Shown here: positions 1-22,037 of the stretch, one piece after another
Layout: each line of letters opens with the position of its first letter
Position numbering within the stretch: position 1 is the first letter of the stretch
Source: a virus
Reading direction: 5' to 3' (one strand)
IMG/VR virus record: IMGVR_UViG_3300037119_006491
Coordinates: 1 to 22,037 of that record
DNA: 22,037 nucleotides
The notes under the pieces: model-generated
The model's database searches: none
Seen by the model: the letters and a program-made list of their open reading frames with translations, nothing else
What the model was told of the DNA's origin: nothing
Program-made: the position numbers and the translations under genes

Positions 1-94
1 CTGTACGCACTGTGCGGGCGTGATGGATCGACTGTCGGCCGCCTACGTGAACGTCGCCATGCGGGCCGCCCTACGGGCTAGGCGGGCCGCCTAA
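1..94 (+). CDS. C-terminal end of an unidentified phage protein (partial)
   Basis: An open frame enters from the left edge and stops at TAA 92-94, which overlaps the ATG of the next gene (TAATG). Only about 30 residues are visible. They start with a CTHC cysteine pair and end in an Ala/Arg-rich tail (ALRARRAA). The overlap with a head-tail adaptor suggests the preceding connector gene, such as a gp6-like head-tail connector, but that is inference from position only. Too little is seen to assign a family. Confidence 0.6.
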   Translation, partial: CTHCAGVMDRLSAAYVNVAMRAALRARRAA

Positions 95-474
95 TGCCGC
101 GCACGCGTCTGGCGTCCGGTCGTGTGGCCTCCGGTGAGCGGCGGCAGTACATCACCCTGCAGAAGCTCGGCGATCCGGTCCCTGATGGCGGGGGCGGCTA
201 TACCGAAGCACCGGAAGACCTTGACCCGCCGGGGACGTGGGCCGCGATGCAGGCGGCGACGGCTCAGGACCTGGAACGGATGGCCGTTGGGACGGTGATC
301 GCCTCCGCCTCGCATATCGTGACCATCCCTTTTCATCCTGAGGTGACCACGGAAACCCTGATCGCCTGGACCGACCCGGCGCGGCGGACCCATACGGCCA
401 ATGTCAAAAGCGTGAACAATCCCGATCAACGCTGCATCGAACTCGTGTTGGTCTGTGAAGAGGTAGTCGCATGA
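94..474 (+). CDS. Head-tail adaptor / head closure protein
   Basis: This 126-aa protein fits the phage head-tail joining family (SPP1 gp16 / HK97 gp7 type, Pfam Phage_H_T_join). Members are small beta-barrel proteins that sit under the portal and connector and close the filled head before tail attachment. Family features visible are the early ITLQKLG strand, a Trp followed by a polar helix (WAAMQAATAQDLERM), a central strand and turn (SHIVTIPFHPEVTTE), and the late NVKSVNNPDQRCIELVLVCE segment, where this family typically has an R.I.L.C.E pattern. Length is normal. The start ATG overlaps the upstream stop, and the stop overlaps the next ATG at 471. Confidence is high for the family and lower for the exact structural position. 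Confidence 0.85.
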   Translation: MPRTRLASGRVASGERRQYITLQKLGDPVPDGGGGYTEAPEDLDPPGTWAAMQAATAQDLERMAVGTVIASASHIVTIPFHPEVTTETLIAWTDPARRTHTANVKSVNNPDQRCIELVLVCEEVVA

Positions 475-626
475 ACATCCTCGAAGTCCTGATCCTCGTG
501 CTGCTGGTCGCGTGGCTCCTCGGGGCGTTTGTCGTTCCGGTGGGCGGGTCTTTGATCCATGTCCTGCTGGTCGTCATCTTGGTCATCGTCGTGATCCGAT
601 TAGCACAGGGGCGCGCGGTCTTATGA
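471..626 (+). CDS. DUF5670 / Lmo0937-like two-TM membrane protein (51 aa)
   Basis: A 51-aa protein nested with ATGA overlaps on both sides: its ATG 471 overlaps the stop of the head-tail adaptor, and its TGA 624-626 overlaps the ATG of the next gene. It has two hydrophobic segments, roughly residues 4-22 and 28-44, separated by a short VPVGG turn. It ends in RLAQGRAVL. The pattern WLLG - GG.IH.LLV - R...GR is what I recall for the Lmo0937 family (DUF5670), small membrane proteins common in environmental and stress-related bacterial loci and of unknown biochemical role. It is not a standard head-tail gene. It may be acquired cargo expressed with late genes. It is too short for common ORF cut-offs, so it is easily missed. 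Confidence 0.75.
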   Translation: MNILEVLILVLLVAWLLGAFVVPVGGSLIHVLLVVILVIVVIRLAQGRAVL

Positions 627-1024
627 GTCGCGGTGTCGTCTGGCAGGGACTCGCGGAGTATCGCGCGGAACTCGCCGCGCTGCCCGACGACTGCCTCCGC
701 GAAGCCGGGAAGTCGATCGAGGGGGAAACCAACGCGGCGTTTGTCGCCGTCGCGAACGTCTACGAATCGCACCGCGTGACTGGCAATTTGCGGAATGGCC
801 TCAGTCTGTCGGCGCTGACGTTTCGCGGGCGACTCACCGCCGGGCGCGTGCTGAAGAGCAACGCGCCGCATGCCCATCTCTTCGATCTCGGGCGCCAGAC
901 GTTTCGGCCCTATCCGCCGACGCATACCTTCAGTCGTGCGGTCGGCCAGGCGCGGCGGCGGTTGGCGCTGCTCTTTCGCGCGATGCTGCTCCGCAAGGGT
1001 GCGACCCAAGTCACGGGTGAATAG
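623..1024 (+). CDS. HK97 gp10-like head-tail / tail completion protein
   Basis: A 133-aa protein read from ATG 623, which overlaps the upstream stop. A longer frame back to 512 lies inside the preceding gene and is unlikely. The layout matches the HK97 gp10-like family: an N-terminal amphipathic helix (WQGLAEYRAELAALPDD), a second helix, the sequence SHRVTGNLRNGLSL, which corresponds to the family's 'TG.Lr.s..' turn, then a late HAHLFDLGRQTF strand and turn (family 'a..veyGt') and a basic C-terminal helix. These proteins act at the head-tail or tail-terminator interface in siphovirus assembly. Its place between adaptor and terminator genes agrees. The stop TAG overlaps the next GTG start. Confidence 0.8.
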   Translation: MSRGVVWQGLAEYRAELAALPDDCLREAGKSIEGETNAAFVAVANVYESHRVTGNLRNGLSLSALTFRGRLTAGRVLKSNAPHAHLFDLGRQTFRPYPPTHTFSRAVGQARRRLALLFRAMLLRKGATQVTGE

Positions 1025-1452: not shown

Positions 1453-1475
1453 ACGAACAGAGAGAAAGGGCGACG

Positions 1476-1901: not shown

Positions 1902-1904
1902 CAC

Positions 1905-2186: not shown

Positions 2187-2197
2187 GAGACGACCCC

Positions 2198-2641: not shown

Positions 2642-2694
2642 ACGTGGATGAGTACGACGTGTTACTAGAGTTGCTGACTGAAAAGGCCGACTGA
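2198..2694 (+). CDS. Tail assembly chaperone, -1 frameshift product (gpGT-like)
   Basis: Shifting -1 at the heptamer 2548-2554 joins 119 residues of the G-like frame to 46 residues read from 2554 to TGA 2692-2694, about 165 aa in all. The extra domain reads APGWREDLRSDLAVAIRCGW and then WVRDLDVDEYDVLLELLTEK. The 'dld..eyd.LlelL' ending is the usual look of the T domain, which binds the tail tube protein in lambda-like phages. The shifted frame has no start codon of its own and ends exactly at the tape measure ATG (TGATG). Both facts support translation only by frameshifting. The efficiency cannot be judged from sequence. Confidence 0.8.
2548..2554 (+). promoter_or_regulatory. Programmed -1 ribosomal frameshift site (A AAA AAC)
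   Basis: The heptamer AAAAAAC lies in the correct phase: zero-frame codons are CTA-AAA-AAC and the slip re-reads A-AAA-AA. It is the canonical X-XXY-YYZ type used by many siphovirus tail chaperone genes. I see no obvious strong hairpin just downstream, which is not essential for this family. Confidence 0.8.
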
Positions 2695-3983
2695 TGCCGG
2701 TAGCCAAATTCGAAGCTGATTTCGTCCAGTTCGAAGGCGCCACGCGTGGCGCGACTGTGGCGCTTGATCGCCTCGATGGCTCTAGCGCGAGAGTGGGCGT
2801 CGCGATCCAGCGTTTCGGTGGAGCGGCGGATCAGGCGGCGCCACACGTCACCACGCTCCACGGATCCCTGCGGCAGTTCGACGGCGTCCTCACATCCATG
2901 GGCCTGCATATCGGGCCAGAAGTCCGGGCGTTGGGTGAACTCGGGGACGCGGCGGGCAGTTCCGCGCTGGGCCTTGGCGGGTTGACGACGGCTGGCTTCG
3001 CCTTCGGCGCGGCGATCGGCGGATGGAAACTCGGGCGGGCTATCGCGGAGCTGGGGGACTTCGATCGCATCATCGGCGACGCGACGGCGAAGCTTTTCGG
3101 CTTGGGGAATGCGGCGGCGGAAGCGGCGGGGGCGCGGATGGATATTCTCGCGCGGGCCAGTGCGAACGCGGGCCGCGAGATTACGGAGATGTCGGAAGCC
3201 ATCTTCATTAACGAACGCGCATTGCAGAAGCTGCGCGATGCGTCCGCGGCGGCGGCCAAGTCCGTCACCGAACTCGCGGAAGCCGAACACGCGCGGAACG
3301 TCGACAACGCGACCAACGTCGCCAACGAGATCAACAACGCGGCCAAGCTGAACACGCTCGAAGAAGAAATTGCCGCGCGGCAAGTGCAACGCAACAAAGA
3401 TTATCTGGCGGGCCTAGATGCAAAGAATGCCAAAGCCGACGCCGCCGCCGACGCTCTCCGGCGCATGGGTGAGGCGGGGAAGAAGGCCGAAGAGGACGCC
3501 GGGGCGGCGACACAGGACACCAACAAAGACTTGGAACGACAGAAGGCCCTCGTGGACGAGATCGCGAAAGCGAATCGCGCCATGGGCGGGACGTTCGATG
3601 TCACCCGCGCCAACTTCGCGCAATCTGCCGCGGGCGTTGGCGCCGATGCCGGCATCATTGAACAGCTCCTGAAAAAGGGCTATTCCTTCGCGCAAGCCGT
3701 CCTCTATTCGAAGCACCCGAACTGGCCTCCACCAGAGCATCCGGGGCCGCGTGTGCCTGGCTTTGCGGGCGGCGTGGAGAACTTCTCCGGCGGGCCGGCG
3801 TGGGTGGGGGAGCGCGGGCCGGAACTCGTCAACCTACCGAAAGGCTCGAGCGTCACGCCGCTCGGCGGTGTGACGAATAACCTCGTCTTTCATGTCAACG
3901 GGACTGCGGTCGACGTCGCGCGACAAATCGAAACCGTCATCATGCGCCAACTGAAATTGGTGCGCCAATTCGGATCCGCCTAA
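2694..3983 (+). CDS. Tail tape measure protein
   Basis: A 429-aa protein starting at ATG 2694 (TGATG overlap with the chaperone fusion). It has an N-terminal segment MPVAKFEADFVQFEGATRGA, a Gly/Ala-rich hydrophobic stretch around residues 88-120 (ALGLGGLTTAGFAFGAAIGG), and long Ala/Glu/Lys-rich helical coiled-coil regions around residues 130-300. The C-terminal signature is FAGGVENFSGGPAWVGERGP followed by ELVNLPKGSSV, around residues 356-386. That signature is typical of tape measure C-termini, and the hydrophobic stretch fits the segment thought to enter the host membrane during DNA ejection. The protein is short for a tape measure. At about 1.5 angstrom per residue it predicts a tail of roughly 60-65 nm. 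Confidence 0.9.
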   Translation: MPVAKFEADFVQFEGATRGATVALDRLDGSSARVGVAIQRFGGAADQAAPHVTTLHGSLRQFDGVLTSMGLHIGPEVRALGELGDAAGSSALGLGGLTTAGFAFGAAIGGWKLGRAIAELGDFDRIIGDATAKLFGLGNAAAEAAGARMDILARASANAGREITEMSEAIFINERALQKLRDASAAAAKSVTELAEAEHARNVDNATNVANEINNAAKLNTLEEEIAARQVQRNKDYLAGLDAKNAKADAAADALRRMGEAGKKAEEDAGAATQDTNKDLERQKALVDEIAKANRAMGGTFDVTRANFAQSAAGVGADAGIIEQLLKKGYSFAQAVLYSKHPNWPPPEHPGPRVPGFAGGVENFSGGPAWVGERGPELVNLPKGSSVTPLGGVTNNLVFHVNGTAVDVARQIETVIMRQLKLVRQFGSA

Positions 3984-3993
3984 GGAGTTTGCT

Positions 3994-4551
3994 ATGCCTG
4001 GCATGTCGTGGGAATCGACGCTCATTACCGCGCAATCGTCCGGGGCGGCCGTCACCGCTGCGGCGGCGACCACGTTGCTCCCGGCGCAAGCGAAGTTTCT
4101 CCTGCCGGCCAACTTCTTTCTGAACCTCGGGCAACGCTTGAAAATCGTGGCGGCGGGGCGCATCAGCTCCGTCATCACCACGCCCGGGACCGCCCGCTTT
4201 GATGTGCGGTTTGGCGGCACGGTCGTCTTCGACGGACTCGCGGTGCTCCTCGATTCCGTGGCCGCCCATACGAACGTGGGTTGGAAGCTTGAGATTGAAC
4301 TCACCGCCTTCGCGATTGGGGCGACGGCGAATCTGATGGGGATGGGCACGTTTACCTGCGAAGACATCTTGGGCGTGCCGGCGACGGCGCCCAAAGGCTC
4401 GCTCGTGGCGGTGTTGCCCTGGAACAGCGCGCCGGCCGTCGGGGCCAACTTCGACAGCGGGGCGTCGCAAATCGTGGATCTGTTCTTTACGCAGACCGTG
4501 GCCACGGGGTCGGTCACGCTGCATCAATACGCACTCGTAGCTCCAAATTAA
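3994..4551 (+). CDS. Conserved virion-associated protein of unknown function
   Basis: A 185-aa protein with ATG 3994 and a clear ribosome site (TAAGGAGTTTGCT). It is beta-rich: LTTLL-like PAQAKFLLPANFFLNLGQRL, IVAAGRISSVITTPGTARFD, VRFGGTVVFDG, HTNVGWKLEIELTA, then an ending VTLHQYALVAPN. Phage proteins of this pattern (filamentous 'LPa.ff..G..lr..a.G.is.v.ttPGT...dvr.G') recur next to tape measure and tail genes. They have the look of jelly-roll or beta-sandwich structural or decoration proteins. I know of no established function. It lies between tape measure and hub genes, where Dit-like or accessory tail-tip proteins sit, so a tail-tip role is an inference. Confidence 0.75.
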   Translation: MPGMSWESTLITAQSSGAAVTAAAATTLLPAQAKFLLPANFFLNLGQRLKIVAAGRISSVITTPGTARFDVRFGGTVVFDGLAVLLDSVAAHTNVGWKLEIELTAFAIGATANLMGMGTFTCEDILGVPATAPKGSLVAVLPWNSAPAVGANFDSGASQIVDLFFTQTVATGSVTLHQYALVAPN

Positions 4552-4555
4552 CGAG

Positions 4556-7500
4556 ATGCCGTTTCGTCCTCTGCGTCCTGGGATCGGGCCGGGGACGTTC
4601 ACGCGTTCGGGATCGGGTGTCGGTGCGGGCGGGGGCGACACCGCGCCGCTCGTCACCTTTGTCACGCCCAACGCCTCCGACATCACCGGCGGCGTCTCGA
4701 TCACGATCACTGGATCCAATTTCCACAATTCGCCGTTGGGTGTGCCGCCCACCGTGACCGTTGGCGGGATCGCGGCGACGGCGGTCGTGGTCGTCAACTC
4801 CACCACGATCACGGCCACGGTCCCCGCGCACGATGCCGGGCTGGTGGATCTCGTCATCACGAACGATCTCGGCCAGTCCGCGACGTTGGCCGACGCCTTC
4901 GTCTACGTCAGCCCGGTCATTACGAGCCTCTCGCCGAACTTCGGCCCGCTCTCCGGGGGCACGTCCGTCATCATCACCGGCGCCAACTTTACCGTCGGGA
5001 TGGCAGTCACCTTCGGGGGCGTGGCCGCGACGAGCACGACGTTCATTGATGCGGGGCATTACGTCGCCGTCACGCCCAACCATGCGGTCGGGCCGGTAGA
5101 CGTCGCGGTCGGGTCTGCCATCTTTCGCGGGGCGTTTTTCTATACGCTGCTGACCCGCGGCGAAGACATTCGCCGGAATCCCACCGTGCGGATTCGGGAA
5201 GTCCTCAACAGTTCCCCGAATACCTGCACGTTTACCGTGGATGGGCGCAGCGCGCCGCCGCAAGTCTCCGAGCTGATTGAGATCACCGACTTCGCTACCG
5301 TGCCGGTCGTCCTCTTTGCGGGCGTGGCCCAAACGGTGGAGCAAGTCTTCGAAGGTCGCCCGCAGAACCTCGCCTGGCATGTCACCGCTTCGGACTTTAC
5401 CTGCTGGCTGAATCGCCGCCGGCCGTTCGGGGAGTACGTCGCGCAGTCCTGCACGGATGTGGTCCTCGATCTCATCACCCGATACGCGCCGTGGGTGACG
5501 GTCACGCACGTCCAAACGCAGCTCGCGCCGGTGACGATTACCTTTGACGGGACGGCGGACTTCGCGACGTGCCTGTCGACCCTGGCGAAGCTGATTGGCG
5601 GCGGTCATTGGTATCTCGACTACACAAAGGATCTGCACTTCTTCCACTTCGTGCCGACGGATCTTCCGACGCCGCTGCAGCCCACCTCAGTCATTGGGGC
5701 GGGCCCGGGGACGGCGATCACGGCCTCGGTCAGTAGCACGGCCGGGAGTCTCAGCCCGGGCTATTACCTGTTCTGGTCGACCTTCGTCTATTCGAACGGG
5801 ATGGAATCGGCGCTGAGTCCATCATCAAATCCCATTGTTCTGAGCGGGCATCGGCTGCCGCAACTGGACACGATCCCGATCGGTGCCCCCGTGGGTGCCC
5901 TGACGGTCACGAAGCGCAAGATTTATTTCACGTATTACGGGACCGGCGTCACGGCGCTGCACGGCTGGATCGAGATCGCCGATAACACCACAACTTCCCT
6001 GACCGCGGCGCCGACGTCCTTCCAGGGCATCCCGGCGATCCCCTATGTCTCGCCGCCCACGGGGCCGCCAGCGGGCCCTGCCGTGAGTGAAAGTGGCACG
6101 TCTGCCCGGGACGTCATCGGGGTCATCCTGGCGGACCTGTATGGCCCAGGCGGAACGATCAGTAACTACAGTTTCGACCCGGGGCGGTATGCCTTCAAGG
6201 TCACCAACGTCTACGCCGACGGGACCGAATCACTCGGGAGTCCCGCGTCAGGGACGATCACGCTCTCCGGGAGTAAAGCCGTCAGCATCACCGCCGCCCC
6301 GGGCAGTCCGATTGCCGGGGTCGCGGTCGTCTATCGCAAGGTCTACGCGTCGAAAGCCGTAGGAAGCGCGGGGCCAGACTTTGCGCTCGGCCGCACACTG
6401 GGCTGGACGCTCATTCCGAATAACTCGGGCGATCCGTTTCTGATTACGCCGGGGATTTCCATCAGCGCGACCGGGTCCGGGATGCCGCCGTCGATCGGGT
6501 CGACGGTCTTTATTCCCAACGTCGACGGCCCGTGGCTGGAGGATGACATCGTCCCGGATGACATCGTCGCGGGCAACACGGACTTTCTGCACGACCCGCC
6601 GATCACGGTCATGGTCGACGTGACGCAAGTCCGGAACCGCGTGATCGTCATTGGCCAACCGGAAGCGCCGCCGCCCGCGCCTGATGTGCTCGCGACCTCC
6701 GCTGGCCCGAACACCGATCTCTATTACGCCGGAGCCCAAGGGGTGATGGCGATTGTCGGAGCCCCGGCGCGCGGGATCCCGATGAACATTCATTGGGTTG
6801 CGCTCTATCAGGCGGCAGCGTCGCCCACGGACATTCACGGCGGCCTCGATACCTTCTTCGTGAACAACGGCCTCACGTACAACTACGTGATCGCGAATCC
6901 CTATACGGCGCTGATGGATTTGCCGGAGGGGTTTTACGATAGCGTCGTCGCGCCGCCTGGTGAGCCGGATCCGTCGCTGTCCGACTCCGGGATCCCGGAA
7001 GTCCCCGTTGTCCGTCCGCGGGTGCAGCTCGATCACCTTGAGTCCCAACGTGCGATGGGCCGGATCGAACTCGACGACAACGGCAACGCCACCGACGGCA
7101 TCCATGAGATCGTGATCGACGATCCGCAACTCAGCACACAGACGCAACTCCTCAACCGGGCGCAAGCGGAGCTCGAGCTGTTTGCCTGGCCAATTGTCAC
7201 GGTCCACTATGCGACCCGCGATCGAAAATCCAAGCCCGGGCGGCGGGTGACGATCGACCTGGCGACGCCGCCGATCAGTGGGACGTTTGTCATTCAGGAT
7301 GTGGAGATCGATCAGATCAAGATCAACACCTCTGATAACCCCTCGCCGCGGTATACCGTGCGCGCGTCCTCGGTGAAATTCGACCTCGATGATCTGCTCC
7401 TCCTGATCTCCGATGCCGTCGGCGGGACGTCCTTCATCAATACGAATCGCCTGGTCCCGGCGGCGGTTGCCGCCGCGGTGGGGTCGATTCCGCCCGCGCC

Positions 7501-7933
7501 GGCGGCGGCCGTCTCGCCCGTGCTGGAGTCCGCCATCGTGACATTCAATGAGGCGGACATCATCGCGGGGACGCTGAAATTGTGCGTCGCCGGGCTGGCT
7601 GGGTATACGATCATTCCGCTGTGTCTGTACTTCACCGATGATTTCAGCACAGTGGCTGGCGGCTGGAACACCTCTCGGAATGCGATCTGCCGGTATGTGA
7701 GCGGGTCAGCGGTGGATCTGATCAACTCCGCGAATACCTTTTTTCAGAACACGGCCACGAAGAACTCGGGCTACGCGATCGGCCCGGCGGTGATTGCGCT
7801 GGCGGCGAATAATCAAAGCGGCATCGGGGTCAACGTGGGGCCAAGCGGGACCAATATCTTGCTGGCCGTGAGCCCGAGCGGCTACACGGCGGAAATCAAG
7901 TTGCTGTATTACCTGGCGGCGTCGACCAATTGA
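4556..7933 (+). CDS. Large tail tip / hub protein with two IPT/TIG domains
   Basis: A 1125-aa multidomain tail protein starting at ATG 4556, five bases after the previous stop. Residues about 35-115 and 117-200 are two IPT/TIG Ig-like domains (SITITGSNF, TVTVGGIAAT; then SVIITGANF, VTFGGVAATS). Residues about 205-370 match the phage hub layout: AGVAQTVEQVFEGR, AWHVTASDFTCWLNRRRPFG, then WYLDYTKDLHFFHF. Residues about 395-470 and 538-600 are two related fibronectin-like repeats, each with a 'PG.Y.F..T.VY..G.ES..SP' core followed by RKIY or RKVY. VMVDVTQVRNRVIVIG and the 'RV.IDL..PPISGTFVIQDVEI' region close the hub part. Residues about 989-1125 form a separate C-terminal beta-rich module, probably exposed and host-binding. 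It is likely a baseplate hub/fibre that recognises the host. Confidence 0.85.
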   Translation: MPFRPLRPGIGPGTFTRSGSGVGAGGGDTAPLVTFVTPNASDITGGVSITITGSNFHNSPLGVPPTVTVGGIAATAVVVVNSTTITATVPAHDAGLVDLVITNDLGQSATLADAFVYVSPVITSLSPNFGPLSGGTSVIITGANFTVGMAVTFGGVAATSTTFIDAGHYVAVTPNHAVGPVDVAVGSAIFRGAFFYTLLTRGEDIRRNPTVRIREVLNSSPNTCTFTVDGRSAPPQVSELIEITDFATVPVVLFAGVAQTVEQVFEGRPQNLAWHVTASDFTCWLNRRRPFGEYVAQSCTDVVLDLITRYAPWVTVTHVQTQLAPVTITFDGTADFATCLSTLAKLIGGGHWYLDYTKDLHFFHFVPTDLPTPLQPTSVIGAGPGTAITASVSSTAGSLSPGYYLFWSTFVYSNGMESALSPSSNPIVLSGHRLPQLDTIPIGAPVGALTVTKRKIYFTYYGTGVTALHGWIEIADNTTTSLTAAPTSFQGIPAIPYVSPPTGPPAGPAVSESGTSARDVIGVILADLYGPGGTISNYSFDPGRYAFKVTNVYADGTESLGSPASGTITLSGSKAVSITAAPGSPIAGVAVVYRKVYASKAVGSAGPDFALGRTLGWTLIPNNSGDPFLITPGISISATGSGMPPSIGSTVFIPNVDGPWLEDDIVPDDIVAGNTDFLHDPPITVMVDVTQVRNRVIVIGQPEAPPPAPDVLATSAGPNTDLYYAGAQGVMAIVGAPARGIPMNIHWVALYQAAASPTDIHGGLDTFFVNNGLTYNYVIANPYTALMDLPEGFYDSVVAPPGEPDPSLSDSGIPEVPVVRPRVQLDHLESQRAMGRIELDDNGNATDGIHEIVIDDPQLSTQTQLLNRAQAELELFAWPIVTVHYATRDRKSKPGRRVTIDLATPPISGTFVIQDVEIDQIKINTSDNPSPRYTVRASSVKFDLDDLLLLISDAVGGTSFINTNRLVPAAVAAAVGSIPPAPAAAVSPVLESAIVTFNEADIIAGTLKLCVAGLAGYTIIPLCLYFTDDFSTVAGGWNTSRNAICRYVSGSAVDLINSANTFFQNTATKNSGYAIGPAVIALAANNQSGIGVNVGPSGTNILLAVSPSGYTAEIKLLYYLAASTN

Positions 7934-7954: not shown

Positions 7955-8377
7955 ATGGGCCTGCGTATGATAGGCAGATTTGATGCAAGCGCGGCGGAAC
8001 CGACGGTGGTGCAGCCGCCGAACAACGTGCCGTATATTGTGGCTGTGGTGCTGATGATGGTCTTGGGCGTTATGGCGGTGACGACGCTGGCGATATTGCG
8101 CCCGACTACCGATAACGTCGGGGTGATTACGACGATCGTCGGCTTCATCGCGCCGACCACGTTATCGCTCCTCGCCTTTATGAAAGCGCAAGAGACGCAC
8201 CTGTCGGTGAACTCCCGCTTGGATGCGTTCATGATCAACGCGAAGCTCGCGGCGCATGCGCAAGGCGTGACGGAGGGCCGGGCCGAAGGGCGCGAGTCGG
8301 CGGATGCGCGCACGGATACCCTGAAACTCTCCGCCGCCACGGCCGCCGCGGAGAAACAGAAGGGACAGGCGCCGTGA
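7955..8377 (+). CDS. Two-TM membrane protein, holin-like
   Basis: A 140-aa protein. Two hydrophobic segments lie around residues 26-47 (YIVAVVLMMVLGVMAVTTLA) and 55-75 (VITTIVGFIAPTTLSLLAFM). A charged, helical C-terminus follows (QETHLSVNSRLDAFMINAKL, then QGVTEGRAEGRESADARTDT). This 'two TM, then SVNSRLD, then EGRAEGRE' form recurs after tail genes in phages and is sometimes labelled holin-like, but a lytic role is unproven. ATG 7955 follows a run of eight G; an in-frame ATG at 7967 is a possible alternative start. It is followed by a second membrane peptide with GTGA overlap. No endolysin is adjacent. Confidence 0.7.
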   Translation: MGLRMIGRFDASAAEPTVVQPPNNVPYIVAVVLMMVLGVMAVTTLAILRPTTDNVGVITTIVGFIAPTTLSLLAFMKAQETHLSVNSRLDAFMINAKLAAHAQGVTEGRAEGRESADARTDTLKLSAATAAAEKQKGQAP

Positions 8378-10110: not shown

Positions 10111-10111
10111 G

Positions 10112-10282
10112 CTAGTCCGAATAGACGATCGTGTAGGCCAACGGCCTGTCCGAAATCTTCTTCACGGTGACGAGCGTTTTTGTCTTCGAGGCTGCTACGA
10201 CGACTTCCAGCAACTTCGTGAGAGCCTCAACCGGCGCCATCCCTGAGAGGTCGCCTGGTTTCTTTTGGTCGTGTTCGGGCAT
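10112..10282 (-). CDS. Unidentified 56-aa protein of leftward operon
   Basis: ATG 10280-10282 has an AGGAG site 7-11 bases upstream (rc of 10289-10293), overlapping the end of the previous leftward gene. The product begins MPEHDQKKPGDLSGMAPVEA, has a helix LTKLLEVVVAASKTK and a strand TLVTVKKISDRPLAYTIVYS, ending in Asp. The 'PL.Y.IVYSD' end with a beta strand suggests a small folded protein. I do not recognise it. Its stop is one base from the cupin-like gene start, so it is co-transcribed and probably translationally coupled. It is below usual length cut-offs. Confidence 0.6.
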   Translation of the reverse strand: MPEHDQKKPGDLSGMAPVEALTKLLEVVVAASKTKTLVTVKKISDRPLAYTIVYSD

Positions 10283-10291
10283 CGCGGTCTC

Positions 10292-10396
10292 CTAGTCTGA
10301 CCAAATGATGAGGAAGTCGATCACTTCCTCGGGCAGCGGTGACGGTTCATCGGCCGTCGGTTCGGCGACGTCCACGGGTCCGGGTTGCTCTTCCAT
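10292..10396 (-). CDS. Acidic 34-aa peptide, first gene of leftward operon
   Basis: ATG 10394-10396 follows AAGGAG (10 bases upstream), a strong ribosome site, so I accept it despite its size. The peptide is acidic and Pro-rich (EQPGPVDVAEPTADEPSPLP), then EEVIDFLIIWSD. Its end (IIWSD-stop) closely parallels the end of the next gene (IVYSD-stop). Function unknown. It lies at the divergent control region and would be the first leftward product. Confidence 0.5.
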   Translation of the reverse strand: MEEQPGPVDVAEPTADEPSPLPEEVIDFLIIWSD

Positions 10397-10438
10397 GTGT
10401 CTAGTCTCCTTGATCGGCTCACAGCCTACCACAGATTA

Positions 10439-10454
10439 GCTGTTGACTTACAGC
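10439..10454. promoter_or_regulatory. Operator-like inverted repeat over the rightward -35
   Basis: GCTGT-TGACTT-ACAGC is a perfect 5-bp inverted repeat with 6-bp spacer covering the -35 hexamer of the rightward promoter. ACAGCC recurs at 10421-10426 and 10450-10455, and GGCT-CAC-AGCC forms another small inverted repeat at 10416-10426. This fits binding sites for the adjacent HTH protein controlling both directions. Confidence 0.45.
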
Positions 10455-10472
10455 CGTAATAATGTTTATTCT
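10443..10472 (+). promoter_or_regulatory. Rightward early promoter
   Basis: TTGACT at 10443-10448 matches the -35 consensus at 5 of 6, with an 18-base spacer to TATTCT at 10467-10472 as -10 (4 of 6). It starts the rightward early run and stands in the divergent gap between the leftward operon and the HTH gene. I found no comparably clear promoter for the leftward operon. Confidence 0.5.
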
Positions 10473-10508
10473 TCCTGTGTCGCTATGGCCTTAAAGGAAG
10501 CTGACCCC

Positions 10509-10676
10509 ATGGTCGAACTGCAGCGGTTGATTGACTCGCTCGGCGCGCAGGAACGCGTGGCGGCGCGCTTTGGGGTGACCCAGCAATTTATCAGCGATCT
10601 GGTGAATGGCCGTCGCCGCTTTCCAGACAGCATTCTCAAACAGCTCGGACTGCGTGCCATCGTGGTGAAAAAGTAA
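10509..10676 (+). CDS. Cro/XRE-family HTH regulator (55 aa)
   Basis: I place the start at ATG 10509 because AAAGGAAG (10493-10500) precedes it with 8-base spacing. The ATG at 10485 would leave almost no leader, and the TTG at 10443 lies in the -35 element. The product MVELQRLIDSLGAQERVAAR is followed by a helix-turn-helix FGVTQQFISDLVNGRRRFPD and ends LKQLGLRAIVVKK. The pattern 'A.rfGVtqq.IS.lvnG.R..P' is that of small Cro/YdaS-like proteins with a single HTH. It probably controls the divergent promoters. Stop overlaps the next ATG (TAATG). Confidence 0.75.
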   Translation: MVELQRLIDSLGAQERVAARFGVTQQFISDLVNGRRRFPDSILKQLGLRAIVVKK

Positions 10677-11364
10677 TGGCTGTGTCAGAAGGCCACGCCT
10701 ACACCTGCGAGAATTGCCGCACCATTTACTGGTCGTGGCCGTCGTGGGTGACTCGTCGCCCTAGTGGCCGGTGCTGTTCGCGACAATGCTATTCAGCGTT
10801 GTGCTTGCAGCGGGTAAAGATGGTGAACTGCGAACACTGCGGACAGCAAATGCCCAAGCGCCAAGGCCGAACGACATGTTCGCATGCGTGTCGTAGAGCG
10901 CTGATGCGATCAATACCGTATTTTGAATCGCGGATTCGGAAGACGTCAGGTTGCTGGTTGTGGTTAGGTCCGCGAAATCCGCAGACCGGCTACGGTACTT
11001 TCTCAGCGACGGGAGCGCCCATCGTGTGTCGTGGCGTCTCTATCGTGGGGCGATACCACGTGACCGCTGGGTGCTGCACAAATGCGACAACCCGCCTTGT
11101 GTGAATCCTGATCATTTGTTTCTCGGCACGCCACAAGAGAACGTGTTGGACGCTCAACGGAAAGGGCGGCGGGCCGTGGCTCAAGAGCCTGCCGTTGCGC
11201 CGTCTACCTGCGAAATGTGCGGCCGTGGATTTACTGTTTTGCGTCGCGCTCTTATCGCAGGCCGAGGTACGACGTGCTCTTCTAAGTGCAGATGCACGAA
11301 AGCCAGGCTTGTTCGAAGTGCTCGAATTGCACACCGCTTCACAGAGAGTGCGGCGGGCCTCTGA
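10676..11364 (+). pseudogene. HNH endonuclease with Zn fingers, split by a frameshift
   Basis: Frame A from ATG 10676 carries two Cys4 zinc-finger-like units (CENC...CCSRQC, then CEHC...CSHAC) and the conserved pre-HNH sequence TSGCWLWLGPRNPQTGYGTF, then loses homology. Frame B, open from about 10951 to 11364, continues AHRVSWRLYRGAIPRDRWVL, HKCDNPPCVNPDHLFLGT and QENVLDAQRKGRR. This is the catalytic beta-beta-alpha HNH core of mobile homing-type endonucleases. A third Cys unit (CEMC...CSSKC) follows. The halves join near 11005-11020, where ACGGGAGC suggests loss of one base in a G run. It is either a real decay event or a base error. An intact version would be about 228 aa. Frame A alone ends as a 142-aa product. 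Confidence 0.75.
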
Positions 11365-11395
11365 TGCCGAACGTCAGCCAGCCGATAACAGGGGT

Positions 11396-11503
11396 ATGGA
11401 CATCAACACAGCACCGATGATGATTGGCTTCGTGCTCTTGGCGGTCGGCTTCATTGTGATCGGCCTGCTCGGCGGATGGGAGCCACGCAATGACCGCTTC
11501 TAA
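11396..11503 (+). CDS. 35-aa single-TM membrane peptide
   Basis: MDINTAPMMIGFVLLAVGFI continues VIGLLGGWEPRNDRF: one hydrophobic segment of about 20 residues, then a short polar tail. The start at ATG 11396 has AGGGG only one base upstream, which is too close for an ideal ribosome site, so an ATG at 11417 in the same frame is a possible alternative. Its 3' end overlaps the next gene at 11490. It is the first of a run of tiny membrane proteins. Function unknown. Confidence 0.5.
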   Translation: MDINTAPMMIGFVLLAVGFIVIGLLGGWEPRNDRF

Positions 11504-11741
11504 CTGCGAGTGCGGTTGCTCTTCTCTAACGGTGGATCAATACATGGACGCCTTAGAACAGGAACTCGGGGAATTCGACGAGGACGGTCGACAGGTGGCA
11601 GGCCCTCAGCCGAAGGCGCCTGAGCCTTCAGCCCATTACAAAATAGTGTGCGCGTGGTGCCGGGCAGTCCTTGAAGAAGGCCCGGTAGGCGCTGCTGTCA
11701 GCCACGGAATTTGCCGCACCTGTGAGGCGAATATCGAATGA
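11490..11741 (+). CDS. Zinc-binding small protein (CxWC...SHGICxxC)
   Basis: ATG 11490 has GGGAG upstream and overlaps the preceding gene. The 83-aa protein starts with a Cys cluster (NCECGCSS) and an acidic helix (YMDALEQELGEFDEDG), then a Pro-rich link. Its C-terminus is IVCAWCRAVLEEG followed by SHGICRTCEANIE. The CxWC...SHGIC..C signature is well known at the C-terminus of bacterial PAS and receiver proteins, and also as stand-alone small proteins. It makes a zinc-ribbon-like site. No catalytic residues are evident. The last bases overlap the next ATG (ATGA). Confidence 0.7.
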   Translation: MTASNCECGCSSLTVDQYMDALEQELGEFDEDGRQVAGPQPKAPEPSAHYKIVCAWCRAVLEEGPVGAAVSHGICRTCEANIE

Positions 11742-11842
11742 CAGGCCGACTCACGATGCTCGCCTTGTCCTACTACTTCTTCCAGGAGATAGGCCAGACG
11801 GTCAGTGCGGTGTTTACCGAGATCGCGGGGTTGCTCTCGTGA
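11738..11842 (+). CDS. 34-aa small hydrophobic peptide
   Basis: ATG 11738 overlaps the preceding stop (ATGA), and its stop TGA 11840-11842 overlaps the next GTG. It reads MTGRLTMLALSYYFFQEIGQ and ends TVSAVFTEIAGLLS. It is moderately hydrophobic and could be an amphipathic or membrane-associated helix rather than a clear TM. The overlap geometry at both ends is the main support. Function unknown. Confidence 0.5.
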   Translation: MTGRLTMLALSYYFFQEIGQTVSAVFTEIAGLLS

Positions 11843-11952
11843 GAGTGATCGCCATTCTCTTTGCCGTGCTGATGTTCGTGTTCATGATCGCGGCGCCGGT
11901 GTTCCTGATTGCTCGCCAGCATTACCGCGCGTGGAAGGCGACGCTGCAATGA
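11839..11952 (+). CDS. 37-aa single-TM membrane peptide
   Basis: GTG 11839 overlaps the upstream stop, and TGA 11950-11952 overlaps the next ATG. The peptide MRVIAILFAVLMFVFMIAAP continues VFLIARQHYRAWKATLQ. It has a single strong TM segment with basic residues on the C-terminal side, which should stay in the cytoplasm. The third tiny membrane product in this operon. It could be a superinfection or toxin-type peptide, but I see no specific evidence for that. Confidence 0.55.
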   Translation: MRVIAILFAVLMFVFMIAAPVFLIARQHYRAWKATLQ

Positions 11953-12245
11953 CCGCCGAACCGTTGGACGCTGTCGTGCTCGTGCTGTTCTTCGTGGCTG
12001 TGCTCGCCATCTGTGCTCATAACTGGCTGCGGGAAGTAGCAGCCCGAAAGGCTGAGGCTGATGATTCGTTTTACCGCGATCCAGCGCTGCCGCGCATGGT
12101 GGATCCGTCGCTGCGAGCGCAGACGACGCAAACAGTTGACTCCATTGCAAGCGCTCTGGGAGTTGAGCAAGGCACCGGTGATCAAGTCATCGCCGACGAA
12201 ATGAATGGCACGGTGCGTCTAACGCTGGTGAGCAGGAGGAAGTAA
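11949..12245 (+). CDS. Membrane-anchored small protein (98 aa)
   Basis: ATG 11949 overlaps the preceding stop. One TM segment lies at residues about 8-24 (AVVLVLFFVAVLAICAHNWL), followed by a cytoplasmic soluble part (VAARKAEADDSFYRDPALPR), a helix (TQTVDSIASALGVEQ) and a beta-like end (DEMNGTVRLTLVSRRK). A frame extending back to 11805 overlaps two genes and is less likely. I do not recognise a family. The anchor-plus-tail design suggests a membrane-tethered effector or scaffold. Confidence 0.6.
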   Translation: MTAEPLDAVVLVLFFVAVLAICAHNWLREVAARKAEADDSFYRDPALPRMVDPSLRAQTTQTVDSIASALGVEQGTGDQVIADEMNGTVRLTLVSRRK

Positions 12246-12371
12246 ATGGGCGCCGCATCACGGCGGAAGTGGACGAAGCGGAGAGCGCTCTACAAGTCAG
12301 CCAAGAGCGTCACGCGAAAGCTGGAACTAAAGGCGCTCTTCGGCCACGATAAGCGGTTCTGGAAGGAATGA
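12246..12371 (+). CDS. Basic 41-aa protein
   Basis: ATG 12246 follows the previous stop directly and has AGCAGGAGG about 6-15 bases upstream. The product is strongly basic: MGAASRRKWTKRRALYKSAK, then SVTRKLELKALFGHDKRFWK. Such basic helices commonly contact nucleic acid. Its stop is immediately followed by the next ATG. Function unknown; supported by the ribosome site and spacing. Confidence 0.55.
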   Translation: MGAASRRKWTKRRALYKSAKSVTRKLELKALFGHDKRFWKE

Positions 12372-13780: not shown

Positions 13781-14061
13781 TGACTGAGTATTTCGCACTG
13801 CTCGGATTCAAAGTGCGCGACATCGTGACGGGCTACGAAGGCGTCTGTGAAACGATCGCGTTTGACCTCTACGGCTGCGTGCAGGCCATCGTGAAGCCGA
13901 GCGTGCAGAAAGACAAACCCACCGAAGTGCCAGACGGCCGGTACTTCGATGTGAAGAGGCTCGTCGCCGTGAGTAAAGCGCCCGTAATGGAAGTGCCTGT
14001 CTTCGTGGAGGTGGCTGGCGGGAGCGAGAAGCCAGCGCGTTCAGAAGGGCCGGCGCGCTGA
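13780..14061 (+). CDS. Small conserved phage protein (RD.vTGYeG, SH3/KOW-like)
   Basis: A 93-aa protein whose ATG overlaps the upstream stop (TGATG). It reads LGFKVRDIVTGYEGVCETIA, FDLYGCVQAIVKPSV and GRYFDVKRLVAV. The 'kVrD.vTGfeG....i..dlyGc.q..v.P.........fdv.RL' layout is a common small phage family found in early regions. The beta-rich start with DxVTGxxG resembles SH3 or KOW-like barrels. No biochemical function is known to me. It precedes the ERF gene with TGATG overlap. Confidence 0.65.
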   Translation: MTEYFALLGFKVRDIVTGYEGVCETIAFDLYGCVQAIVKPSVQKDKPTEVPDGRYFDVKRLVAVSKAPVMEVPVFVEVAGGSEKPARSEGPAR

Positions 14062-14843
14062 TGCCGCAGTCTGCGCCCCTGCTCGCCTCTGGGGAAAAGG
14101 ACATGGAGCTCCGCCCGCGGGACGCGGTCGAACTGGACGCCAGCGATGCGGGCATGTTCGAACGGCTCGCGAAGGATCCAACCGTCGATGTACTGAAGCT
14201 GGAGAAGTTAATTGAAATGCAGGAGCGGATCCTTCGGTTCAACGCCAAGGCCGCTTTCGAGGCTGCATTTGCAGAGATGCAGGGCGAGCTGCCTATCGTC
14301 GACGAGCGCGGCCGGATCCTCGTGGACGGCGTGGAGCGGAGCACCTTCGGGAGACACGAGGACATTCAGGAAGCCTGCAAGCCGATCTGTGCGCGGTTTG
14401 GGTTTTCCATTCGGCACAAGAACAAGCGACTCGAGAACGGCAAGTTGCTGATCACGGGCGTGCTCTCGCACAAGGGCGGGCACAGCGAAGAGGACGAATT
14501 CGAATGTCCGCCGGACGGCTCAGGGAAGAAGAACGAGATCCAGTCGCTCGGCTCGACGCGTGAGTATGGGCGCCGCTACACCACGATCTCTCTGCTGAAC
14601 ATCGTCACGCGTGGCGTGGATGACGACGGGCGCAAAGCCGGCGCCAAACCCAAGGACGAACCCGAAACGCCAGAGGGGTACGACGCGTGGTTCGCGACGC
14701 TCGACGGCCTTGCGGCAGATGGTGAAAAGGCCTTCACTGAAGCCTGGAAGAACTCCACTGATGCGCACCGGAAGTATCTCGCGACGACGGCACCAAAGGT
14801 GCTCGCGGCGCTGAATACCAAAGCTCGAAAGGCGAAGCCGTGA
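14061..14843 (+). CDS. erf: ERF-family single-strand annealing protein
   Basis: A 260-aa protein of the essential recombination function family (Pfam ERF), known in phage P22 for annealing complementary strands and circularising phage DNA. Family features: helix LIEMQERILRFNAKAAFEAA, then AEMQGELPIVDERGRILVDG, the GRHEDIQEACKPICARFGFS strand and helix, ITGVLSHKGGHSEEDEFECP, and GSTREYGRRYTTISLLNIV, the typical 'GsarsYarRY...lLni' motif near residues 172-190. The C-terminal part is helical and variable. The following exonuclease gene overlaps (GTGA), so the pair forms a Red-type module. The ATG overlaps the previous stop. Confidence 0.9.
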   Translation: MPQSAPLLASGEKDMELRPRDAVELDASDAGMFERLAKDPTVDVLKLEKLIEMQERILRFNAKAAFEAAFAEMQGELPIVDERGRILVDGVERSTFGRHEDIQEACKPICARFGFSIRHKNKRLENGKLLITGVLSHKGGHSEEDEFECPPDGSGKKNEIQSLGSTREYGRRYTTISLLNIVTRGVDDDGRKAGAKPKDEPETPEGYDAWFATLDGLAADGEKAFTEAWKNSTDAHRKYLATTAPKVLAALNTKARKAKP

Positions 14844-15511
14844 ACGCCATCGTGCATGACGTGGAACAGCGAAGCCCTGAGTGGCATGCGTTGCGCCTCG
14901 GTCGCGTCTGTGCCTCCAAAGCCGCAGACATGCTCGCCGTTCGGCCCAGTGATGGGAAGCCGGCGGCCGGGCGCAATAACCTCCGTGTCCAATTAGTGCT
15001 CGAGCGTGTGACTGGACGTTCGCAGGAACGTAACGTTCAGACGCAAGCGATGCTCGACGGGGTAGAGCGTGAAGATGCGGCGCTGGCGCTCTACCAGGCA
15101 GAGACGGGATCGCTCCTGCAGAAGGTCGGGTTCGTCTCCCATCCCGAATTGATGGCAGGAGCCTCGCCTGACGGCGTCCTGGGCTCCTGGGAGCGCTTTG
15201 TGGAAGTGAAGGCCCCAATCCCTGCCACGCACTTAGAGACGCTCAGAACGAGTCGTGTGCCGGATGACTACCTGAAGCAGATGCTGCACCTTGCTTGGCT
15301 GACCGACATGCGAGCGGGAGACTTTGTGTCGTATCAGCCGGACTTCCCCGATGTGCTGCGGTTGAAGATCCTGCCGGTGACGTTCACGCCAGCGCAACTT
15401 GACGAGCACGGGGCCAAGGTGCGGATCTTCCTGAAAGAAGTCGACCTCGAGACCGATGCTATTCGCACGATGGCGAACCTTAAAGGCCAACTCCAGGCGG
15501 CTCTGGCATGA
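14840..15511 (+). CDS. YqaJ-type viral recombinase / exonuclease
   Basis: A 223-aa nuclease of the lambda exonuclease/YqaJ superfamily, resecting double-strand ends so ERF can anneal. Visible motifs: SPEWHALRLG near residue 12 (entry Trp and R), the helix around E76, ASPDG with D111, VEVKAP with E122 and K124 (the classic D...E-x-K metal centre), and DDYLKQMLHLAW, matching the family's 'Y..Q..h' helix. The start GTG 14840 overlaps the ERF stop (GTGA). Length is slightly above the usual 200 or so. High confidence in fold and catalysis. Confidence 0.9.
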   Translation: MNAIVHDVEQRSPEWHALRLGRVCASKAADMLAVRPSDGKPAAGRNNLRVQLVLERVTGRSQERNVQTQAMLDGVEREDAALALYQAETGSLLQKVGFVSHPELMAGASPDGVLGSWERFVEVKAPIPATHLETLRTSRVPDDYLKQMLHLAWLTDMRAGDFVSYQPDFPDVLRLKILPVTFTPAQLDEHGAKVRIFLKEVDLETDAIRTMANLKGQLQAALA

Positions 15512-19130: not shown

Positions 19131-19451
19131 TTGTCCATCACACTCCACGTCTATCTCAACGGTGAAGAAGTCTCTGGAATCACTGGCATTCTCGCGTCCA
19201 TCCGTCAGCAGGGAGTTGGCCTCATGGCCCTATCCGCCGCGCAAGCCGCGAAACTCGAAGCGCTGAAAGCCACGATTGACACCGTCTCAGCCGGCCTTCG
19301 GGCTGACATCGAAGCCCTGAAGGCCGCGATCACTCCTGGCGCCGACCCGGCCGTCGATGAGGCGTTTGATGCGTTGGCTGCGCGCCTGGCACCATTGGCC
19401 GCGTTAGATGCCGAGAACCCCGGCGGCGCGCCTCCTCCCAATCAGGTCTAG
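19131..19451 (+). CDS. Coiled-coil Ala-rich protein (106 aa)
   Basis: The frame opens at TTG 19131 (GGCGAG upstream); ATG 19224 with AGGGAG is a possible shorter start. It reads SITLHVYLNGEEVSGITGIL, then MALSAAQAAKLEALKATIDT and a long Ala/Leu helix, then AVDEAFDALAARLAPLAALD and a Pro-rich end NPGGAPPPNQV. Such 'helical repeat with Pro-rich C-end' proteins are frequent in phage genomes near lysis or virion genes. It may be a trimeric coiled coil. Its stop is one base from the next ATG, so it starts the secreted gene unit. Confidence 0.6.
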   Translation: MSITLHVYLNGEEVSGITGILASIRQQGVGLMALSAAQAAKLEALKATIDTVSAGLRADIEALKAAITPGADPAVDEAFDALAARLAPLAALDAENPGGAPPPNQV

Positions 19452-19452
19452 G

Positions 19453-20031
19453 ATGCGCTGGCGGTGGCTGGCGTGGCTCTTCGTAGCTGCGTCAGTCTCT
19501 CCCTCTTGGGCGCAGACCGTCATCACGGATCCTGCCCAACAGATCCTCGGATGGGATTTTGTCGCGCAACCTGACGCCGGAGTCATCACGCCTGCGGACA
19601 TGAGCGCGATCACGGGCCGGGTCTATATCAACGCGGAACCCGCGATCACAGCGACGGGTATTTCCTGCGATGCGACGGTCTGCAAGATGCCGTGGCCGTC
19701 GGCATTAGCGACGCGGTTACGGGCGCCTGGCGTGTTCTGGTCGGTGCAACTCGCGCTGGTGAACACGCAGGGCGAAAGCCTCAAGAGCCTTCCTCCGCTG
19801 ATCCTTACAACGGCAGTCCTCCCTGGCGTGACTTGCCCCTATGTCACTCCGGCGGGCGTGCTGACCCCGCTGCAGTTAGGCGAGTTTCGAGAGGGGATCA
19901 ATGCGTTCCCGTCCATTACCCGCAACGATCAACTCCTTAGCATGGGGATGGAACTGGTGTTGCGCAAGGACTCCGCCACGACGGTCCGGATGCGCGCGAC
20001 GTGCGTAGGGATTCCTGTCGGAGGCGTATGA
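19453..20031 (+). CDS. Secreted protein with Sec signal peptide (192 aa)
   Basis: ATG 19453 gives a clear Sec signal peptide MRWRWLAWLFVAASVSPSWA followed by Q (cleavage expected near residue 20-21), so the mature part leaves the cytoplasm. The body starts TVITDPAQQILGWDFVAQPD and looks beta-rich, with AITGRVYINAEP, cysteines in ISCDATVCKMPW and TCPYVTPAGVLTP, and an end TTVRMRATCVGIPVGGV. The first 110 residues look like an Ig-like module. No family recognised. A secreted phage product is unusual. Its stop overlaps the next ATG (ATGA), so it likely works with the G8 protein. Confidence 0.7.
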   Translation: MRWRWLAWLFVAASVSPSWAQTVITDPAQQILGWDFVAQPDAGVITPADMSAITGRVYINAEPAITATGISCDATVCKMPWPSALATRLRAPGVFWSVQLALVNTQGESLKSLPPLILTTAVLPGVTCPYVTPAGVLTPLQLGEFREGINAFPSITRNDQLLSMGMELVLRKDSATTVRMRATCVGIPVGGV

Positions 20032-22037
20032 CGGCCTGGGCGTTGGCGGTGGCGCTTGTGTTGGTGAGTGCCCCGGCGTCCGCGCAGATGTATATGGGCC
20101 TCGCGTCGGAAGGCTTCACCAAGCGTCCGACCTGCACCACTGCGCGGGCGGGCGATTACCACGATCCGGAGACGTGGGCCTGCGGGCATGTGCCAGGCCC
20201 ATTGGAATGGGCGGACATCGAGCACGACGTCACGCAATCGCTCACCATCACAATCGGCACGCTCTACATCGGGCCGACAGCATCGTTGGCCTCGACGAAC
20301 GGCGGTATTGAACTGGTTTTCTCCGACGTGCCGGTCCGCGACGAATCACAATTCGATACGGGTTTGGTATCCGAAGCCCGCAGTATCAGCCTGAAGGGAA
20401 CGCCGAAGACCGCCTGGACGACCACGACGACCGGGTTGAGTGCAGGCGCGGCGTTCATGGAGGTCAAGGACTGCGCGGGCTGGCGGACGGGGGACCGCGT
20501 GCTCCTCGCCGACACCCGTGAGGCACGCTATAGCTTTACCGAAAACATGCGCCCAGAGGTCCGCACCATCTCCACGCTCTTCGGCTGTCGCGTGACGTTC
20601 AATACACCCCTGACGCACGACTACCCGACCGCCCGCGATCACAACCAGGTGGTCGAGCGGACAATCCCGGTGGGGAACCTGACGCGGGACTACGTCATTC
20701 GCTCCGCGAACCCGAACGGCACGCGCGCGCATGCGCTGTTCACGGGTGCGGGCCGCGTCGACCTGCAGTACGTCGCCTTTCAGGATATGGGTCGGACCAA
20801 TATCGACTCGATCATGCACGACACGACGAACAAGATTGGGCGCTACGCCGGGTGTCACTTTCATCATTTGACGCAGCCTGGATCGCAATGCGTGGGAGTT
20901 GTTGTCGAGCGTGCGAAAAAACACGGCTTCGTCTTGCACGATACCAACGAACAGATCTTCCGTGACAATCTCTGCTTTGATGCCTATGGGGCGTGCGTTT
21001 ACACGGAGACTGGTGACGAAGAAAACAATCTACTTGACAACAATTTGGTGATCTCAGTTAGTGGCGGCGGGCGGTTCTCGCAAGGCTCGTTCAATCTCAA
21101 TGGTCCCGGCGGAGATGGGGCTTGTTTCGAGTTGTGGGGGATGCGGAACATCGTCACGCGCAACGTCGGCGCCAACTGCGAGATTGCCGGGTTTGAAGTG
21201 TGGAACACGGGATCGCGTGGCGCACATGCCATCAAGGTCTTCACGGATAACGAGGCGATTGGGAATACGTGGGGCCTGTCGTTCTGGACAGTCGGCGCCT
21301 TCGGGACGCCGAGCGTGGTCGACCACTTCATGGAGTGGCACAACTCCACGAACGGGCTCTACATGTACGAGCAGCGGGACGTGGAATTTCGAGATTGGTA
21401 CGGGCGATCCGATCCGTCCTACTCGGTCGCGGCCGGGACGCGTGGCTTGGGGAAAAACACGTGGTTCGGCGACTACGACCCCGGTGCCTTCATGCTGTGG
21501 ACGCGGCCGAACATCCAGAACAAAGATGACGGGATCGTATTGCCCTACGGCACGGCGACGCCGGTCATGGGGCCAGGCGATCGGGTGATGCGCGTCGTGG
21601 ATGGCTACTTCTACAACACGCGCGACGTGGTGCAGTTTGTCAATCAGACCTCGAATGGCCGACCGGCTGGCGCGTTCAAGGCGGAATTCATCCGGCCGAT
21701 CCATGGCAATCCGATCGGTACCCACTACGGGAAACAGTTCAACGCGGGTGATGCCATTACACTGATGACCGTGGACGTTGTCGATTATCAGGGCGTGACT
21801 GGTGATAGTTTTCGCGTCTTCGGTACGCAGCAGGAACCGACGGCGCTGATGACGCAGACCGGCGTTGGGAACTTTGGCTGCCCAGAAGCGGGCTTGACGA
21901 ATCAGCAGTGTTTCACGACGCACGGCGTGACGACATTCGGTGAGCTGACGCCTGCGACGGCGGTCTCCCGAGCGCGGATTGCTGGGAAGGTGCTAGGCGG
22001 TGTCATTGGACCTGAGCCACTCGTGGCGCCTCGGAAT
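20028..22037 (+). CDS. Secreted G8-domain / beta-helix protein (3' end beyond window)
   Basis: A continuous frame of 670 codons from ATG 20028 to the window edge with no stop. The signal peptide MTAWALAVALVLVSAPASAQ predicts export. Residues about 40-160 match a G8 domain: GDYHDPETWACGHVPGP, TITIGTLYIGPTASL, LKGTPKTAWT and GWRTGDRVLL (the 'Wsdp.TW..G.vPg ... I.G.L' pattern). Then follow NLTRDYVIRSANPNGTRAHA and VDLQYVAFQDMGRTNI, and a long series of short strands such as LDNNLVISV, NIVTRNVGANCEIAGFEVW and VVDHFMEWHNSTNGLYMYE, typical of a right-handed beta-helix. Relatives include eukaryotic CEMIP/TMEM2 and bacterial extracellular proteins that may act on or bind polysaccharide. It has GGAGG 4 bases before ATG. 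A depolymerase or adhesion role is inference. Confidence 0.75.
   Translation, partial: MTAWALAVALVLVSAPASAQMYMGLASEGFTKRPTCTTARAGDYHDPETWACGHVPGPLEWADIEHDVTQSLTITIGTLYIGPTASLASTNGGIELVFSDVPVRDESQFDTGLVSEARSISLKGTPKTAWTTTTTGLSAGAAFMEVKDCAGWRTGDRVLLADTREARYSFTENMRPEVRTISTLFGCRVTFNTPLTHDYPTARDHNQVVERTIPVGNLTRDYVIRSANPNGTRAHALFTGAGRVDLQYVAFQDMGRTNIDSIMHDTTNKIGRYAGCHFHHLTQPGSQCVGVVVERAKKHGFVLHDTNEQIFRDNLCFDAYGACVYTETGDEENNLLDNNLVISVSGGGRFSQGSFNLNGPGGDGACFELWGMRNIVTRNVGANCEIAGFEVWNTGSRGAHAIKVFTDNEAIGNTWGLSFWTVGAFGTPSVVDHFMEWHNSTNGLYMYEQRDVEFRDWYGRSDPSYSVAAGTRGLGKNTWFGDYDPGAFMLWTRPNIQNKDDGIVLPYGTATPVMGPGDRVMRVVDGYFYNTRDVVQFVNQTSNGRPAGAFKAEFIRPIHGNPIGTHYGKQFNAGDAITLMTVDVVDYQGVTGDSFRVFGTQQEPTALMTQTGVGNFGCPEAGLTNQQCFTTHGVTTFGELTPATAVSRARIAGKVLGGVIGPEPLVAPRN

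Follow-up and report, generated by a model that had tools for sequence, protein, structure and literature searches.

Human CEMIP and TMEM2 (CEMIP2), of the CEMIP/TMEM2-type beta-helix family, are disputed hyaluronidases. For TMEM2 the activity itself is contested (PMC10206443, PMC10474455, PMC10276149); one study found no hyaluronidase activity and the structure paper assigned no active site (PMC10206443). A bacterial precedent for an exported beta-helix enzyme is WceF of Pantoea stewartii, which hydrolyzes its host's exopolysaccharide (PMC7949094). A literature search at the level of titles and abstracts found no report of a G8/CEMIP-type protein in a phage, and its results were essentially mammalian CEMIP and TMEM2 work. 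Here, such a protein is described from an uncultivated tailed phage, and its likely role is weighed against that of the phage depolymerases that share its fold class.

The phage and its gene order

The window, that is, the whole stretch of DNA that was analyzed, is the complete record IMGVR_UViG_3300037119_006491 with a length of 22,037 bases. The features that define its context and the gene of interest are as follows:

94..1024, + strand: two genes, Hc1 head closure and Neck1/tail completion (phrog_25, phrog_5)
2694..7933, + strand: tail genes including a probable tape measure (phrog_19914, weak) and a TIG-domain tail protein (PF01833)
7955..8377, + strand: small membrane protein, holin-like, 65% identical (tblastn) to one in viral contig L019
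10443..10676, + strand: repressor-like HTH protein (phrog_35, E=3.9e-6)
14061..15511, + strand: ERF annealing protein and YqaJ exonuclease, early module
19224..19451, + strand: upstream coiled-coil-like ORF of 75 aa, read from its sequence, no family over threshold
19453..20031, + strand: 192-aa protein with a signal-peptide-like start (score 9.0), overlapping the start of the beta-helix gene
20028..22037, + strand: CEMIP/G8-type beta-helix protein, 670 aa visible, 3' end missing (PF24606, TMEM2 profile, AF2, Foldseek)

The genes for head closure, neck, tape measure (weak), TIG-domain protein, repressor-like protein, ERF and YqaJ, together with genes for HNH endonucleases, identify the window as a tailed phage. 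The TIG tail protein (4556-7933, 1125 aa) contains two IPT/TIG domains, and neither this protein nor the membrane protein had a match among named phages. A search for kin with the TIG tail protein yielded only L064 (IMGVR_UViG_3300037070_006734, 6462 bases), a shorter record contained in the window whose matched part is identical to the window at about 1104-7565 and which is apparently the same phage in another assembly. The 192-aa protein has no known relatives and none in the viral contigs.

The beta-helix ORF runs open from an ATG at 20028 to the end of the window, with an alternative GTG start at 20001. The ATG is preferred because GGAGG lies three bases upstream and because the start and the preceding gene's stop codon overlap. 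Reading past position 22037 had been proposed as a check on the missing 3' region, and no further sequence was found: the window is the entire viral record, which therefore holds nothing beyond 22037, and a contig search identified no viral contig that contains its last bases. Features within the gene are listed below:

20028..20084, + strand: signal peptide MTAWALAVALVLVSAPASA, predicted cleavage before Gln20 (ASA, then Q)
20130..20402, + strand: shortened G8-like region, residues 35-125, aligning to G8 proteins and to TMEM2 (profile)
20730..20732, + strand: H235, invariant, upstream of GRYAGCHFH
20745..21062, + strand: CEMIP beta-helix core, residues 240-345 (PF24606)
20838..20864, + strand: GRYAGCHFH motif with Y273, H277 and H279 invariant (alignment of 38)
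20937..20939, + strand: H304, invariant, downstream of GRYAGCHFH
21006..21008, + strand: E327, invariant, downstream of GRYAGCHFH
21876..21929, + strand: C-terminal motif GCPEAGLTNQQCFTTHGV, common to the L019 and L009 phage and Nitrosomonas homologues (alignment)

The N-terminal sequence, MTAWALAVALVLVSAPASA followed by QM, obtained a von Heijne-type score of 12.8, the highest among the predicted genes of the window, and by this score the protein has the cleavable N-terminal signal peptide that marks a Sec-exported protein. The n-region contains no Lys or Arg when read from the ATG at 20028 and five Arg when read from the GTG at 20001.

Family, fold and conserved residues

The protein belongs to the CEMIP/TMEM2-type beta-helix family. 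It matches PF24606 (CEMIP_beta-hel) over residues 240-345 with 42.7 bits (cut-off 27.3, E=6.9e-11), and a profile built from 36 relatives returned human TMEM2 as its sole PDB hit (E=4.4e-38). The alignment consists of three blocks, takes in the G8 turns and skips TMEM2 166-335, a lectin-like insert. An AlphaFold model based on 38 sequences (pLDDT 73, pTM 0.79) contains a confident right-handed beta-helix core, with residues 12-65 and the last 26 residues poorly modeled. In a Foldseek search the model retrieved TMEM2 (8c6i, E=6.5e-12, TMq 0.43) at rank 1, followed by Klebsiella and Pseudomonas phage depolymerases, and in the viral library tail spikes and pectate-lyase-like phage proteins came out on top. 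The TM-scores are modest, so that the fold class is secure and the fine superposition is not. The original prediction of a signal-peptide beta-helix protein of at least 670 residues, open at the window edge and located in a phage genome, is borne out by the signal peptide, the profile and structure searches and the phage genes.

The G8 pattern on which the prediction was built holds in part. The quoted motifs are present, the TMEM2 profile covers the region and the homologues are mostly annotated as G8, but the Pfam G8 family (PF10162) gave no match. In a tblastn search against plasmids, eight records were found in which most of the matched genes carry a G8 annotation, and the alignments start at residue 32 or 35 with one exception, indicating that the region is homologous; compared with relatives it is about one helical turn short (about 25 aa after VPG). 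Because of this shortening and the missing Pfam match the protein was not filed under Pfam G8. It is best described as a variant, carried by a phage, of an already known family, and G8 is a loose label for it.

Six residues (H235, Y273, H277, H279, H304 and E327) are invariant in the 38 aligned sequences. TMEM2 matches five of them (Y273, H277, H279, H304 and E327), within GRYPVHFH, VHGT and LEDG; the H235 region falls outside the TMEM2-aligned blocks. On the strength of the alignment this His/Glu/Tyr set is putatively catalytic, and the residues should be regarded as candidates, no more. Over its last 54 visible residues the protein can be aligned to the C-terminal motif present in L019 (GLTNQQCWDTYG...) and in the Nitrosomonas homologues. 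Past this motif the L009 and Nitrosomonas proteins end soon and those of L010, L012, L015 and L019 extend by roughly 150-300 aa; the window protein may end early or continue for about 150-300 aa.

Relatives in viruses and bacteria

With the window protein as a single query, neither scans of viral contigs nor tblastn against named phages returned matches, which made profile scans necessary. These identified 14 viral contigs with relatives besides the window, representing 13 distinct contigs since L017 and L018 encode the same protein. A check with four families for portal, capsid or terminase genes was positive in L006, L010 and L013 and weakly so in L008, L014 and L016; the terminase gene lies adjacent to the family gene in L017 and about 5 kb on in L013. 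The family gene of L009 has genes for an Rz spanin, baseplate proteins and other tail proteins as neighbors. L012, L015 and L019 have genes in common with the window phage, and relatives of its holin-like protein are encoded upstream of the family gene, at 2.4 kb in L019 (tblastn) and at about 5 kb in L012. Many other neighbors are without a database match and appear fibre- or structure-like when their sequences are read. Overall, at least nine of the 13 contigs are counted as phage by their gene content, and L007 and L014 are doubtful. The search with the four families for a portal, capsid or terminase gene was negative in L007, and this contig was left aside because it may be chromosomal DNA of a planctomycete; its N-terminal FEQLERRQCLS resembles a planctomycete motif. 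The terminase match in L014 is weak, and long ORFs on the opposite strand compete with the frame of its family gene. Wherever the context of a relative is readable, genes for tail proteins, lysis or terminase lie close to the family gene, and this arrangement suggests that it is expressed late.

About seven of the 13 viral relatives (L008, L009, L010, L011, L015, L016 and L019) have signal-peptide-like starts and six (L006, L007, L012, L013, L014 and L017) do not. Cleavage scores are weak in L011, L015, L016 and L019, and these starts could be anchors. In L010 the signal-peptide part (9980-10055) is in frame with the rest of the gene but is opened by no ATG, GTG or TTG, which may reflect an unusual start codon, a frameshift or an error in sequencing. 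In L008 (11801-12964) the family protein runs into a weak C-terminal match to glycoside hydrolase family 30 and might be a fusion with a second carbohydrate-active domain. L016, probably a Bacteroidetes phage by its sequence, encodes a GDSL lipase/acylhydrolase protein with a signal-peptide-like start and, not far from it, a G8 protein with a PA14 domain at its end (4503-7406 and 9968-12271).

The cultivated Curvibacter phage PCA1 (OP588919.1) encodes a G8-like protein of 981 aa (UZZ64504.1; L065, 305-3250) that carries the annotation hypothetical. The gene is located after a collagen-like tail fibre gene and before a lysis-like cassette of small membrane, DUF5675 and spanin-like genes, and its product lacks both a signal peptide and the His motif and matches G8 only below the Pfam cut-off. 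PCA1 infects sessile cells only, which its authors put down to the state of the host.

A total of 44 family loci were found in bacterial genomes, and signal peptides are also present on the Acidobacteria and Nitrosomonas homologues. The phylogenetic trees contain several separate viral lineages: L009 groups with Nitrosomonas proteins and L013 with a planctomycete protein, both with strong support, and L010, L011, L012, L015 and L019 form a viral clade. The window protein sits on a long branch. It is joined to this viral clade plus L008 in a quick tree (SH-aLRT 90), and a careful tree leaves its placement unresolved, with the AU test not rejecting the viral-clade grouping (p=0.385). A recent transfer from an Acidobacteria-like clade was considered, and the corresponding grouping was rejected by the AU test (p=0.009). 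In three Roseobacter-group plasmids (L002, L003 and L004) the G8 proteins are encoded amid glycosyltransferase, GH16 and chain-length-kinase genes, which suggests that these proteins handle exopolysaccharide and agrees with the earlier view that the family is linked with polysaccharide.

Role of the protein

There is an even chance that the protein is an exported, probably catalytic CEMIP/TMEM2-type beta-helix enzyme that acts on polysaccharide and has a late role, in the tail-fibre and lysis region, in aiding release. According to this model the phage-made protein would be threaded through the host Sec system, shed its signal peptide and fold outside the cytoplasm, where a groove lined with the conserved His/Glu set would bind, and probably cut or trim, exopolysaccharide or surface polysaccharide. 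Late in infection the host's own polysaccharide would be thinned, and progeny would be released and spread. An exported polysaccharide enzyme is favored because several features agree, namely the signal peptide, the family, a putative site that is intact and the exopolysaccharide genes around the plasmid homologues, with WceF as a precedent. The late timing is drawn from the neighbors of the relatives, since the downstream side of the gene is missing from the window and the gene follows early genes. Against the model stand, as far as sequences can tell, the six viral relatives without a predicted signal peptide, some weak cleavage scores, the n-region without Lys or Arg behind the ATG start and the dispute over the activity of the human homologue TMEM2.

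The main rival reading makes the protein a virion tailspike or tail-fibre depolymerase whose hydrophobic start plays no part in export or is a legacy of a bacterial ancestor. It draws support from the phage versions that begin without a signal peptide (L006, L012, L013 and L017), from the tailspikes among the Foldseek matches, from the tail genes that adjoin the family gene in relatives and from the position of the PCA1 gene, whose product has no signal peptide, behind a tail fibre gene, although the PCA1 protein, which lacks the His motif, may not be equivalent. It is nevertheless considered rather unlikely: the window protein carries a strong signal peptide, no virion-binding or virion-anchoring domain was found at its N-terminus, where the signal peptide is followed by a short unmodeled linker and the G8-like turns, and more than 11 kb separate its gene from the tail module of the window. 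The missing part could hold a virion anchor at the C-terminus.

Expression in the lysogen, which the original prediction had favored, fared less well than the family assignment that came with it. An exported conversion cargo could alter the surface polysaccharide of the host, for example in phage exclusion or a change of biofilm, and would fit the repressor-like gene, the signal peptides of two neighboring genes (19453-20031 and 20028-22037) and the bacterial homologues, which are chromosomal or plasmid genes that serve the cell itself. However, no integrase was found among the genes scanned in this incomplete genome, a crude scan detected no promoter or terminator that would set the beta-helix gene apart, and the genes of the relatives lie in late regions, so that lysogeny cargo is improbable and late action in lysis and release is more likely. 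That the exported protein is an adhesin or lectin, binding polysaccharide without catalysis, is more improbable still; the negative hyaluronidase result for TMEM2 and the PCA1 version without the His motif are compatible with it, but the His/Glu set is invariant across phyla in the 38 sequences. A host origin of the gene, as bacterial DNA next to an integrated phage, or a chimeric assembly was rejected as the main reading and is the most remote of the alternatives, for although the gene lies at the extreme contig end and its best single-sequence matches are bacterial MAGs, it overlaps the preceding gene on the same strand with no GC shift, the AU test rejects the Acidobacteria-like grouping and does not reject the viral-clade one, and phage contig L019 holds both this family and the 65% identical counterpart of the window's holin-like gene.

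If the protein is exported, it would give phages an added route to act on the biofilm matrix without riding on the particle. A wider proposal, put forward here with considerable doubt, is that several tailed-phage lineages repeatedly adopted CEMIP/TMEM2-type enzymes that are Sec-exported late as diffusing, non-virion release factors that cut the matrix, and that these compact versions share a catalytic His/Glu site that the human proteins have not had assigned. Lacking the lectin insert, the compact proteins of viruses and bacteria point to a short list of residues that may be catalytic, in a family whose human member has been given no active site (PMC10206443).

Comparison with known systems

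The window protein shares with CEMIP and TMEM2 (PF24606 and PF10162) the beta-helix, by profile and by fold, and a GRYxxHxH-type motif followed by a His and a Glu, and differs from them in its shortened G8 region and the absence of the lectin-like insert; unlike TMEM2 it is not membrane-anchored. The bacterial G8 proteins (Acidobacteria, Nitrosomonas, Rhodobacterales and Planctomycetes) display full-length or core homology and the same invariant residues, at about 22-32% identity, and in contrast are encoded on chromosomes or plasmids and in some cases carry C-terminal secretion repeats. Phage tailspike depolymerases (such as LKA1 gp49, the Klebsiella K1 lyase and KP34p57) are likewise phage-encoded right-handed beta-helices; no sequence similarity of the window protein to them was detected, and they are virion parts with anchoring domains, whereas the window protein has a signal peptide and no visible anchor. 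WceF differs in its Tat signal, its bacterial operon and its trimeric tailspike-like fold outside the CEMIP family. The soil viral chitosanase V-Csn (PMC9485262) belongs to a different family, GH75, and its activity has been demonstrated; like the gene described here, it is a carbohydrate-active gene on an uncultivated phage with kin among bacterial enzymes.
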